A DNA stretch of 64,000 bases from Georhizobium profundi (GTDB lineage Bacteria > Pseudomonadota > Alphaproteobacteria > Rhizobiales > Rhizobiaceae). The notes under the pieces were generated by a model that made no database searches, was not told the DNA's origin, and saw nothing but the letters and a program-made list of their open reading frames with translations. Below are positions 34,565 through 39,513 of this stretch, piece by piece. Numbering within the stretch: the first letter of the stretch is position 1; every line of letters starts with the position of its first letter. The stretch covers positions 4,292,608 to 4,356,607 of the forward strand of contig NZ_CP032509.1 of the NCBI RefSeq assembly GCF_003952725.1, written 5' to 3'. The position numbers were made by a program, and so were the translations under genes.

Positions 34565-34867
34565 ATGTCCCGCAGTTGCGAATTGACCGGCAAGGCCGTC
34601 CAGTCGGGCAACAATGTGAGCCACGCGAACAACAAGACGCGCCGCCGCTTTCTGCCCAACCTCTGCAACGTCACGCTGATTTCCGACGCGCTTGGCCAGA
34701 GCTACCGTCTGCGCGTTTCCGCGCATGCGCTGCGTTCGGTCGAGCACCGTGGCGGCCTCGACGCTTTCCTGCTGAAGGCCAAGGAAGGCGAGCTTTCCAT
34801 GCGCGCCCGCCTGCTGAAGCGCCAGATCGCCAAGAAGAACGTCGGCGAGACTGCCGCGGCAGCCTAA
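34565..34867 (+). CDS. rpmB: 50S ribosomal protein L28
   Basis: A 100-residue L28. It begins [33 protein letters not shown], split here by motif as [15 protein letters not shown] and FLPNL, which are diagnostic, and continues with [20 protein letters not shown]. The lysine-rich, Ala-ended C terminus is usual in alphaproteobacteria. A clean intrinsic terminator follows after 20 bases. Confidence 0.97.
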
Positions 34868-34925: not shown

Positions 34926-34955
34926 CTGGTGGCATCACCCAGGATAAAAAAATGC
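34926..34955 (+). promoter_or_regulatory. preQ1-I-like riboswitch at the start of the queuosine-precursor transporter
   Basis: The sequence folds as an H-type pseudoknot: P1 pairs CTGG (34926-34929) with CCAG (34939-34942), P2 pairs loop bases GCAT (34932-34935) with ATGC (34952-34955), and the connecting L3 is A-rich, GATAAAAAA (34943-34951). L2 ends in a cytosine (34938) directly before the 3' P1 strand, where class I preQ1 aptamers bind the ligand. This is the architecture of preQ1-I riboswitches (short P1, short P2, A-rich tail). P2 contains the AUG start codon and the Shine-Dalgarno AGGA straddles the end of P1, so ligand binding should block initiation. The downstream gene imports queuosine precursors. 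Confidence 0.65.
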
Positions 34956-35587
34956 AGGCTCTGAAGCAGCACGCACCATTCATTGCGGCCATGGCGCTCG
35001 TCGTCGCGGCATCGAACTTCCTTGTTCAGTTTCCGGTCCAGGCGACCATCGGCGGCTTCGATCTCGCCGACCTTCTGACCTGGGGCGCCTTCACCTATCC
35101 TGTCGCCTTTCTGGTCACCGACCTCACGAACCGACGCTACGGGCCGCAGGCTGCTCGCCGCGTCGTCCTTGTGGGTTTCGCCGTCGCGGTTGTCCTCTCG
35201 ATCTGGCTTGCGACGCCGCGCATTGCCATCGCCTCGGGTTCTGCTTTCCTTGTTGCTCAGATGCTCGACGTGTCGATCTTCGATCGCTTGCGCCGCGCCG
35301 CGTGGTGGAAGGCGCCGTTGATCTCCAGCATCATCGGTTCGGTGATCGACACGATCATCTTCTTCTCTCTCGCCTTTGCGCCCGTGTTCGGCGTCCTTGG
35401 CGCCAATGACTCGTTCGCGATCGCATCCGCGCCGCTGCTCGGTCTGATCGCTCTGGAGGCCCCGCGCTGGCTCTCCTGGGCGCTTGGAGACCTCGGCGTG
35501 AAGCTCGTCGTGTCGATGGTGATGCTTGCGCCCTACGGTGCGCTGCTCGCGCTCATGCGCAACGACGGCCAGCCCCGGCCGGCCTGA
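34952..35587 (+). CDS. Queuosine precursor transporter, YhhQ/VUT family
   Basis: A 211-residue inner-membrane protein with about six helices, of the VUT/YhhQ (QPTR) family that imports preQ0/preQ1. Family features are FDLADLLTWGAFTYPVAFLVTDLTNRRYG, given here by its parts TWGAFTYPVAFLVTD and NRRYGPQAARR, and later WWKAPLISSIIGSVIDTIIF. The ATG at 34952 is seven bases after AGGA and lies within the preQ1-I-like pseudoknot. The window also holds gluQ, which modifies queuosine-bearing tRNA(Asp). The gene ends one base before the convergent phytase-like gene. Confidence 0.92.
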   Translation: MQALKQHAPFIAAMALVVAASNFLVQFPVQATIGGFDLADLLTWGAFTYPVAFLVTDLTNRRYGPQAARRVVLVGFAVAVVLSIWLATPRIAIASGSAFLVAQMLDVSIFDRLRRAAWWKAPLISSIIGSVIDTIIFFSLAFAPVFGVLGANDSFAIASAPLLGLIALEAPRWLSWALGDLGVKLVVSMVMLAPYGALLALMRNDGQPRPA

Positions 35588-36592
35588 TCACTCGACCAGC
35601 TCGAATTCCAGCAACAGGTTGCGCTGAAGGAACAGGTGGTTGTCATCCGAAACGAGGATGACGCTGATCCGCCCATCCGCATGCTCGATGACATCGAGCC
35701 CTTCCATGTTGTCGATCTGGTCGCCGAAATTCGCCTCGAGCATCACATCGCCATCGACGACGGCACCGGGGCGGATGTCGGCCGCCGCGATCCGGCGGAT
35801 GCGCATGCCGATGCCTTCGCTCAGCGAAAAGCGGCGCTCCAAAAGGAGAATGTCGCCATCCGGCAAGAACGCGCCGTCGGTAACGTCGAAGGGCGGGTGT
35901 CGCTTGACGAAGAAGACGCCCTCCTGCGGGCCCGAGAGTACCGCCGCGTAGATGTCGCCATCGGCATTGAGGCTGCGCTCGCTGACCAGCACCGGCGCGC
36001 CGTCAAGCGGCCCGTCCTCCGGCGCGACCATCACCGTTTCGATGCCGGCATTGCGGCGAAGCTCGGCGCGCGGCATGACCATCGACAGCACGCCTGAAGG
36101 CGCTCCCGGCGGAAAGCTCGAGCGATCGAAGATCTCGACGCGATGGTTGTGCTCGAAACCGACGATCAGACGGTCACCGTCAAGCGCCAGCCCCTCCGCA
36201 TCGGCCTGTGATTTGCGCTCATGAGGCACACCGGCGTCGCTGAGGATCGGCGCCATGCGGAAATCGGTGAGCCCGCGCATGCGGCCGCTCTCGTCGCGCA
36301 GAATGCGGCTGCTGTACCAGTTGCCGGTGTCCATGACGCCGATAAAGGCATCGGCACTGCCGTCAAAGCGGATCGCGGACATGCCGCCGACCACGCCGCC
36401 TTCCGACGAGAACTCAAGCCCGCCGCGAAATTCGAACGCGCCGAACCGGGTTTCATCGGATCCGATGCGGAAATTCTCGATGACCTGGGCGTTGATCGCG
36501 ATCGGCGCATCGCTCTCGGCATCCTGGGCGCGTGCACAACCGGCGGCGAACAGCGTGACGGATAGGAGCAGGCCGCTGCGTGTAAGCGTCAA
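35588..36592 (-). CDS. Esterase-like activity of phytase family lipoprotein
   Basis: A 334-residue exported protein. The N-terminal signal ends in the lipobox-like FAAGC with the cysteine at residue 19, suggesting lipidation. The remainder is a beta-propeller-like phytase-like domain with [39 protein letters not shown] and [25 protein letters not shown]. Enzymatic activity is inferred from the family name only. Its start overlaps the cobT stop by four bases, so it is probably translated from the cobS-cobT transcript, an association common in rhizobia but without a known reason. Confidence 0.88.
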
Positions 36593-38499
36593 CCGGCCCT
36601 GCGCATCGCAGGGCCGCGCCTCCCTGCGGAGGGCCCCTGCTCTTCTTCGAACAGGCTTGCGAGCTGCTCGGTCATGGCGCCTGCCAGTTCCTCGGCATCG
36701 ATGATCGTGACGGCGCGGCGATAGTAGCGCGTGACGTCATGGCCGATGCCGATGGCGAGGAGCTCGACCGGCGAACGCGTCTCGATTTCCTCGATCACGG
36801 CGCGCAGATGGCGTTCCAGATAGTTGCCCGGATTGACCGAAAGCGTGGAGTCGTCGACCGGCGCGCCGTCCGAGATCATCATCAGGATGCGGCGCTGCTC
36901 AGGCCGGCCCAGCAGGCGATTGTGCGCCCAGATCAGCGCCTCGCCGTCGATGTTTTCCTTGAGCAGGCCTTCGCGCATCATCAGGCCGAGGTTGCGGCGC
37001 GCGCGGCGCCATGGGGCATCGGCGGACTTGTAGACGATGTGGCGCAGATCGTTGAGACGGCCGGGGCTCGCCGGCTTGCCTTCCGCAAGCCACTTCTCGC
37101 GTGCCTGCCCGCCCTTCCAGGCCTTGGTGGTGAAACCGAGGATCTCGACCTTCACACCGCAGCGCTCGAGCGTACGCGCAAGAATGTCGGCGCAGGTGGC
37201 GGCGACGGTGATCGGGCGGCCGCGCATCGAGCCGGAATTGTCGATCAGCAGCGTCACCACAGTATCGCGGAAATTCGTGTCGCGCTCCATCTTGAAGGAA
37301 AGCGGCTGCATCGGATCCATAATCAGTCGCGACAGGCGTGCCGGATCGAGGTAGCCCTCTTCCAGATCGAAATCCCAGGCGCGGTTCTGCTGCGCCATCA
37401 GGCGGCGCTGCAAACGGTTGGCCAGGCGTCCGACGACTCCCTGCAGATGGGCAAGCTGCTTGTCGAGGAAAGCACGCAACCGGTCGAGTTCGGCCTCGTC
37501 GCAGAGATCGGAGGATGCGACTTCCTCGTCGAAGGCTTCAGTGAAGACGCGGTAGTCGACCTTCTCGTTGATGTCGGACAGCGGCAAGTTCGGCCGACGG
37601 GTTTCGCCGGGCGAATCCGCCTCCTCATCCATATCCTCGTCGAAGTCCTGCTCGGAGACTTCCGCGCCGTCCATCTCGCCCTGCTCGGACTGGTCTTCGG
37701 CGCTGTCATTGTCCTCCGAAGGTGCGCTGTCGGAGCCTGCAGCCTCGTCGGCGCTGTCCTCCTTGTCCTCGTTCGAGCGCGGTTGTTCTTCGTTGTCGTC
37801 CTCGTTGTCTTCGCTTTCCTGGTCTTCGTCCTCGCCGTAATCCTCGGCCATCTCCATCGAGGCGAGCATGTTGCGCATGGCGCGGGCGAAAGCCTGCTGG
37901 TCGTCGACGGCATTCACGAGATTGTCGAGGTCGCCTGCTGCCTTGTCCTCGATCCAGCTTCGCCAGAGATCGACGACCTTGCCGGCCGATTCCGGTACGG
38001 CGCGGCCCGTCAGGCGCTCGCGCACGAGCAGCGCAACGGCCTCTTCGAGCGGCGCATCTTCCTGGTTGGTGATGCCCTTGTAATTCGCCTTGGCGTATTT
38101 GTCGGAGAGCATAGATGCGATGTTGTCGCCAACGCCCGACATGCGCCTCGTGCCGATCGCCTCGACGCGGGCCTGTTCGACTGCATCGTAGATCGCGCGG
38201 GCATCGGAACCCGCAGGGGCCATGCTCGAATGGACGCGGCTGTCATGACACGCCTTGCGCAGCGCCATGGAGTCGCCGATGCCGCGGGTCACCGCAAGAT
38301 CGTGGCGGGTCGGACGCTTCGGCAGGTCGGGAAGGCGGGCACGCTCGCCCGTCAGGCCCGGGCGTTCGTTGGCATAGACGACCTCAAGCTCGTGGTCGCC
38401 GGCAATCGAACGAATGCAGCCGGCAAGCGCGCGCTTAAACGGCTCGGTGTCGACCGGGCCGCCAGGCTTTCCTTTGGAGTTATCGCCGCGTCCTGCCAT
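36589..38499 (-). CDS. cobT: Aerobic cobaltochelatase subunit CobT
   Basis: A 636-residue CobT, the large partner of the ATP-driven CobNST complex inserting Co2+ into hydrogenobyrinic acid a,c-diamide. The N-terminal helical domain (residues 1-205) is followed by a strongly acidic Glu/Asp/Ser linker (about 210-310, e.g. [16 protein letters not shown]) and a C-terminal von Willebrand A domain with the MIDAS motif [17 protein letters not shown]. cobS lies 15 bases upstream in the same direction. The long open frame on the other strand is an artefact. Confidence 0.96.
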
Positions 38500-38514
38500 G
38501 CTCGTTCAGCGCTT

Positions 38515-39513
38515 TCAGTTATGGGCATCCAGAACGATGTTCGCGGCGCTTTCCTTCAGTTCCTCGCCGAAGGCGCGCTGATACTGCTCTGCCACAAGCG
38601 TGCGCTCCAGTTCGTCGCACTTGTTGAGGAAGGTGACCCTGAAGGCGAACGAGATGTCGCCGAAGATGCGCGCATTCTCGGCCCAGGTAATGACCGTGCG
38701 CGGGCTCATGACGGTCGACAGATCGCCGTTCATGAAGGCCGAGCGCGTCATGTCGGCCAGACGCACCATGCTCGAGACCGTATCGCGGCCCTTTTCCGTG
38801 TCGAAACTCTTCACCTTGGCCAACACGATGCCGACTTCGTTGTCATGCGGCAGGTAGTTCAGCGTCGTCACGATGGACCAGCGGTCCATCTGCGCCTGGT
38901 TGATCTGCTGGGTGCCGTGATAGAGGCCGGTCGTATCGCCAAGGCCGACCGTGTTGGCCGTCGCGAAGAGGCGAAACGCGGGGTGCGGCCTGATGACGCG
39001 GCTCTGGTCGAGCAGCGTCAGGCGGCCGGAGGATTCCAGTACACGCTGGATGACGAACATCACGTCCGGGCGACCAGCGTCGTATTCGTCGAAGACGAGC
39101 GCGACATTGTGCTGGTAGGCCCAAGGCAGAATACCGTCCTTGAACTCGGTGATCTGCAGACCGTCCTTGATGACGATCGCATCCTTGCCGACGAGATCGA
39201 TACGGCTGACATGGCTGTCGAGGTTGACGCGTACGCAGGGCCATCTCAGCCGTGCAGCGACCTGCTCGATATGGGTCGACTTGCCGGTACCGTGGTAGCC
39301 GGAGACCATGACGCGCCGGTTATGCGCAAAGCCCGCCAGGATCGCGAGCGTCGTATCGCGGTCGAAGAGATAGTCCGGATCGAGTTCCGGTACATAGGCA
39401 TCGACGGACGAATAGGCCGGCACATCCATATCGCTGTCGATACGGAACGTCTCGCGGACCGACACCGTCGTGTCGGGAAGGTTCTCAATGGCAATGTCGA
39501 TCTTGTTCATCAT
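38515..39513 (-). CDS. cobS: Aerobic cobaltochelatase subunit CobS
   Basis: A 332-residue AAA+ ATPase. Walker A is [16 protein letters not shown], Walker B is [14 protein letters not shown], and sensor 1 is [14 protein letters not shown]. It forms a hexameric ring with CobT to power CobN. The N terminus has two start codons in a row ([13 protein letters not shown]). It is followed by cobT; the J-domain gene lies 75 bases upstream on the same strand, as in other rhizobia. CobN and the rest of the corrin pathway are not in this window. Confidence 0.96.

Follow-up and report, generated by a model that had tools for sequence, protein, structure and literature searches.

Translation of yhhQ in Georhizobium profundi is probably governed by a riboswitch with a class I preQ1 fold, the P2 helix of which would hide the start codon and lower the level of YhhQ; the ligand, the direction of control and the block of initiation are the parts of this reading that we infer. 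The element lies on the + strand of the window, by which we mean the whole 64,000-nucleotide stretch of DNA that was analysed (contig NZ_CP032509.1), and the features of the region are as follows.

34565-34867, upstream of the element: rpmB, encoding ribosomal protein L28
34887-34915, + strand: G+C-rich hairpin between rpmB and the element, identified by folding and followed by the T-rich TTTCATTT
34926-34929, + strand: P1 5′ strand, CTGG, from the sequence (CTGG/CCAG in 115 of 117 leaders, CTAG/CTAG in 2)
34930-34931, + strand: L1, TG (UG in the RNA; UU in the UUC relatives), from the sequence and leader comparison
34932-34935, + strand: P2 5′ strand, GCAT (the 148 element rows listed from the family search all have CAT, although the pattern left this strand free)
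34936-34937, + strand: L2, CA (2 nt long in 113 leaders and 3 nt long in the other 4 of the 117 compared)
34938, + strand: C directly before the P1 3′ strand, positioned from the sequence and also read in leaders of related loci before the search patterns fixed it
34939-34942, + strand: P1 3′ strand, CCAG, from the sequence and alignment
34941-34944, + strand: AGGA, the likely Shine-Dalgarno sequence, 7 bases before the ATG and overlapping the P1 3′ strand and L3
34943-34951, + strand: L3, GATAAAAAA, A-rich, doubling as the spacer between AGGA and ATG, from the sequence
34952-34955, + strand: P2 3′ strand, ATGC, the start codon and opening base of codon 2, from the sequence, covariation and the tree
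34952-35587, + strand: yhhQ, queuosine precursor transporter (Vut_1) of 211 residues, from PF02592 and TIGR00697

The open reading frame that begins within P2 matches PF02592 (Vut_1, E 1.8e-27) and also scores 98.8 bits, above the cut-off of 50.95, with the queuosine precursor transporter model TIGR00697; these matches bear out the original assignment to the YhhQ/VUT family. P1, P2, the C before the P1 3′ strand and the A-rich L3 fall exactly where the original prediction had placed them, and the H-type pseudoknot, this C and this loop are features of class I preQ1 riboswitches. A scan for the same geometry beside any ATG returned a single match in the real window, the element at 34926-34955, while 60 dinucleotide-preserving shuffles of the window, scanned on both strands, gave two matches, both with only three P2 pairs. 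When the pseudoknot is left out, folding gives the 48-nt leader no stability advantage over its shuffles (z 0.89); this measure is uninformative, because the E. coli yhhQ leader likewise does no better (z 0.79).

To assess covariation we compared 117 leaders, which remained after 8 of 125 had been dropped as identical and which still include near-copies. They came from the best 80 YhhQ loci, from loci of the order and family searches and from chosen further stretches, drawn in part from a set of 12; 11 further stretches contained too little of yhhQ. In the pattern behind this set, three places of P1 could each hold either of two letters, and CAT, TG, the U following the P1 5′ strand and the C preceding the 3′ strand were held constant. 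Since the AUG is fixed, three P2 pairs are invariant, and it is at the fourth pair, formed in the window by G34932 opposite C34955, that covariation supports the P2 fold in the compared sequences. Leaders with UGG across L1 and P2 have C after the AUG in 59 of 59 cases and those with UGC have G in 17 of 17, so that the fourth pair is G-C in 59 leaders and C-G in 17. In the 41 leaders with UUC this base is A in 26, C in 8, T in 7 and G in none.

The same behaviour is seen on a YhhQ tree built from 116 of the 117 rows with the first residues of the protein omitted. Across the 59 UGG rows position +4 changes 0 times, whereas positions +5 to +9 change 16, 17, 17, 20 and 19 times, respectively; across the 17 UGC rows +4 again changes 0 times, versus 2-7 changes at its neighbours; and across 40 UUC rows +4 changes 12 times, with neighbours at 10-14. 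Codon 2 thus always begins with C in the UGG group, whether it specifies Leu (34), Gln (9), Arg (8) or Pro (8). On the tree the leaders have switched between the UUC, UGG and UGC flavours no fewer than 7 times. Supported branches offer three independent contrasts (sign test p 0.25), and two at position 6 (p 0.5); the naive Fisher value of 5e-25 ignores kinship.

P1 contributes a change of its own. Its third pair is A-U rather than G-C (CTAG/CTAG) in L170 and L173, which are sisters on the tree (support 81), so this is probably one compensatory event. In alignment A2, which comprises 80 distinct rows and was fitted to P1, 94.9% of cells are paired with the pseudoknot counted; sliding the partners lowers this share to 17-48%. 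Of 500 shuffles, 0 reached its covariation score of 0.049 (0.020 in shuffles); the further pair types, 2 in number, are not above the shuffles (mean 3.0). Covariation in related leaders was one of the checks put forward with the original prediction, and neither its absence nor changes that break P1 or P2 were found in this set. Taken together with the frequency of the element at yhhQ in the family (see below), the covarying fourth P2 pair and the compensatory P1 change uphold the predicted class I preQ1-like pseudoknot.

Ten of the 117 leaders hold the knot in a different relation to the gene. They have a fifth P1 pair (G opposite C in 10/10), have lost the AGG, and form P2 as CCAU/AUGG. The AUG of this P2 is out of frame with YhhQ in nine of the ten, L183 being in frame, and inspection by eye places a likely ATG or GTG start 8-11 bases after the GGA of AUGGA, with the choice of start unsure in L172 and L185. 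Judged from its letters, AUGGA in these ten relatives could serve as a Shine-Dalgarno-like site. The Shine-Dalgarno forms occupy two places of the YhhQ tree. These leaders indicate that the knot can close on either the start codon or the Shine-Dalgarno sequence, and they argue that in the window's form the AUG is the true start and AGGA the true ribosome site. Consistent with the original claim that the P2 3′ strand is itself the start codon, the AUG of P2 is in frame with YhhQ in all 107 leaders that keep AGG upstream; the sequence is AGGA in 92 of these 107 CCAGG leaders and AGG followed by G, T or C in the other 15.

The element sits at the start codon in 61 of 81 loci, that is, the best 80 YhhQ loci plus the window; the 20 loci without it include Roseibium, Stappia, Devosia, Amorphus and Cohaesibacter. 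Within the window's family, which from the named loci we take to be Rhizobiaceae in the wide sense of GTDB, we searched with a pattern in which the P2 5′ strand and the two outer P1 pairs were unspecified. It is matched by 343 of 394 genomes, while a backward control pattern matches in 2 of the family genomes listed. Among the 150 family matches listed, 148 are the element, and the other 2, both in genome G787, are chance matches. The pattern is unmatched in 51 family genomes, 32 of which have yhhQ at E 1e-10 or better. Reading the loci of 30 such genomes revealed 13 divergent forms and 17 cases without a recognisable element, one of these (L180) being a decayed-looking copy. Eight small family genomes (1.1-1.6 Mb, L175-L182) have yhhQ without a recognisable element or, for L180, with the decayed-looking copy; L174, from a 2.3-Mb genome of the same genus as five of them, retains the element.

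Wider sampling returned to the same family. In the order sample 9 of 249 genomes match and all nine belong to the window's family, which has 10 genomes among those listed. A search of 385 genomes of the class with model R1 scored the window at 57 bits and the next match at 26 bits; five class-sample matches (L093, L094, L095, L097 and L105) were translated and rejected, as by eye no yhhQ-like reading frame follows them. Matching genomes in the phylum sample of 349 comprise 15 in the family and 17 outside it. Of the latter, L223, L224, L226 and L227 were read and look like chance, while L225 and the phylum matches without loci were judged on their printed letters alone. Neither the order nor the phylum sample yielded a convincing case outside the window's family, an absence that holds for the genomes searched, since the class and phylum samples are thin and the pattern searches exact. 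One metagenome-assembled genome labelled Rhodobacteraceae (L079) carries the UUC form.

The genomic surroundings of yhhQ are conserved as well: rpmB lies upstream in every motif locus of sufficient length (112 of 112) and in 32 of 37 motif-less loci. The hairpin between rpmB and the element looks terminator-like by eye and is a possible rpmB terminator; it is absent from the list returned by a terminator scan of the window. A sigma-70 promoter search for yhhQ in the window found no site. An Rfam match to Termite-leu over this hairpin and the leader was rejected, as its 26.9 bits fall below the cut-off of 51 and the relatives compared do not share the hairpin sequence. Downstream of yhhQ, the minus strand (35588-39513) encodes a phytase-like esterase domain protein followed by the cobaltochelatase subunits CobT and CobS.

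These observations bear on two readings in which no metabolite would be sensed. Initiation alone would conserve AGGA, the A-run and ATG, so the region might simply be a strong initiation site with an incidental knot. We regard this as highly improbable, since the upstream CTGG and CAT are conserved to an equal degree, +4 tracks its facing base in both directions, P1 has undergone the paired change to CTAG/CTAG, and ten leaders drop the AGG yet hold the knot. Small conserved knots over ribosome sites also serve proteins, and a translational operator bound by a protein would suit the unbroken presence of rpmB upstream of the motif loci. The same gene is upstream of most motif-less loci, however, so the element does not track rpmB, and the knot resembles one that is known to bind a metabolite and likewise sits at yhhQ; we therefore give a protein operator little credence, if somewhat more than an incidental knot.

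We thus return to a translational riboswitch as the preferred reading, which would operate as follows. P1 and P2 form the small H-type pseudoknot, and preQ1 bound at C34938, the putative preQ1-reading base by likeness to the E. coli element (PMC10622847), would lock P2. Because the AUG and the initial base of codon 2 make up the P2 3′ strand, locking would hide the start codon and withhold it from the initiator tRNA, while P1 and L3 would crowd the AGGA ribosome site. Synthesis of YhhQ, the preQ1/preQ0 importer, would then fall, amounting to end-product feedback on uptake. The original prediction had the switch acting by hiding the AUG; the placement of P2 on the AUG agrees with this, and the overlap of AGGA with P1 and L3 refines it, in that both initiation signals are touched.

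The gene content of the window genome (99% completeness) is compatible with a need for uptake. It contains queA and tgt as neighbours (L240, L241), and no QueF was found in it with an E. coli protein query or with the Pfam family, the latter being positive in 8 of 14 controls. The sole QueC candidate (22.3 bits, cut-off 22) was rejected, as it is an NAD synthase. With queA and tgt but neither QueF nor a true QueC, the window genome seems dependent on imported precursor and would salvage preQ1. This is a single genome, and according to a survey most Alphaproteobacteria encode the complete pathway (PMC11570991).

The natural ligand could instead be preQ0, queuine or another guanine-like base acting through the same fold and the same block of the start codon, which we consider unlikely, though a stronger contender than either of the readings without a metabolite. 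It would accord with the preferential import of preQ0 by E. coli YhhQ (PMC10622847), with the variable L2 base before the C (A in 91, C in 14 and U in 12 of the 117 leaders) and with an L1 unlike that of type III in 76 of 117. On the other hand, the E. coli element, whose loops are identical to those of the UUC form, prefers preQ1 (PMC10622847), and in a window genome that seems to lack QueF preQ0 would be useless for queuosine. We accordingly retain preQ1 as the favoured ligand.

On balance, we favour the view that these leaders represent an additional class I preQ1 riboswitch subtype across Rhizobiaceae, in which the start codon closes P2, the RNA determines which base opens codon 2, and small changes around the AUG have switched the knot between hiding the AUG and hiding the Shine-Dalgarno sequence. 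For preQ1 riboswitches, the available text of a review tables Shine-Dalgarno occlusion, transcription termination and domain docking as the modes of action; "start codon" occurs 0 times in that text (PMC11625349), and neither "start codon" nor AUG appears in the available text of the type III paper (PMC10622847). Other preQ1 literature, including PMC12519234, PMC3766115, PMC2864571, PMC2258182 and PMC5372724, has in its accessible parts neither a start codon within P2 nor a rhizobial element, and the 2014 paper that defined type III could list rhizobia. In the available text of PMC5372724, yhhQ is placed under various preQ1 riboswitch classes, and neither "rhizobi" nor Agrobacterium occurs. 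The word riboswitch is absent from two papers on precursor transporters (PMC11570991 and PMC11130926). If our reading is correct, an RNA of about 30 bases combines the aptamer with an expression platform that includes the start codon, the RNA constrains the second codon of YhhQ, and queuosine salvage in rhizobia and agrobacteria is under the control of its precursor. The relatives would then provide a natural series, running through UUC (3-bp P2), UGG (GCAU/AUGC), UGC (CCAU/AUGG) and Shine-Dalgarno versions, that allows hiding of the AUG and hiding of the Shine-Dalgarno sequence to be compared within one fold.

An Rfam search of the 64-kb window gave no match at the gathering threshold. RF00522 (cut-off 39 bits), the model against which the original prediction was to be checked, leaves the window unmatched and places 0 of 101 genomes of the order above its cut-off; this negative carries no weight, because the E. 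coli yhhQ leader is unmatched too. RF00522 is nevertheless the best Rfam match of one UUC relative (L053), at 14.4 bits.

Like the class II and class III preQ1 riboswitches, which are larger HLout pseudoknots and govern queuosine-precursor import (PMC11625349), the rhizobial element would control import of a queuosine precursor, but it differs in the size of its fold, and neither class has an Rfam match in the window. Within class I, type I is marked by an invariable UC before P1 and by the sensing of two preQ1 molecules (PMC11625349); the UUC relatives share its UU after P1 and 12 of 117 leaders its UC before P1, whereas the window has AC before the P1 3′ strand. Type II, represented by B. 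subtilis queC and by T. tengcongensis, the aptamer of which has four P2 steps, acts through transcription termination or partial Shine-Dalgarno occlusion (PMC11625349). It has the AC before the P1 3′ strand, the H-type pseudoknot and the A-rich tail in common with the window, but unlike the window form its mechanism involves no start codon in P2.

The comparison with type III is the most detailed. The yhhQ leader of E. coli, a type III preQ1-I riboswitch of known crystal structure, binds preQ1 with a KD of 58 nM and has AAGG in P2 (PMC10622847), and the type is described as almost exclusively gamma-proteobacterial in that paper and as almost exclusively pseudomonadotal in a later review (PMC11625349). 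The E. coli K-12 yhhQ leader reads GGG UUC CCU CA C CCC, a linker, AAAAAGG and AUG, and the rhizobial UUC form reads GG UUC CAU CA C CC, a linker, an A-run and AUG: L1 UUC, L2 CA and the C are identical, and P2 differs by one paired exchange, CCU/AGG in E. coli versus CAU/AUG in rhizobia. The window shares with type III an H-type pseudoknot at yhhQ, an A-run before P2 and, in its A34937 and C34938, AC before the P1 3′ strand. It departs from type III in having UG and a fourth P2 pair in place of UU, which is found in 41 of 117 leaders, and in a P2 made of AUGC rather than the Shine-Dalgarno AAGG. The rhizobial L3, furthermore, is short and doubles as the spacer after AGGA, and the rhizobial form occurs in Rhizobiaceae, not in gamma-proteobacteria. 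As both UU and AAGG were looked for and are absent from the window, we do not file its element as type III; it would work as a class I element does, and it looks like a sister form of type III.
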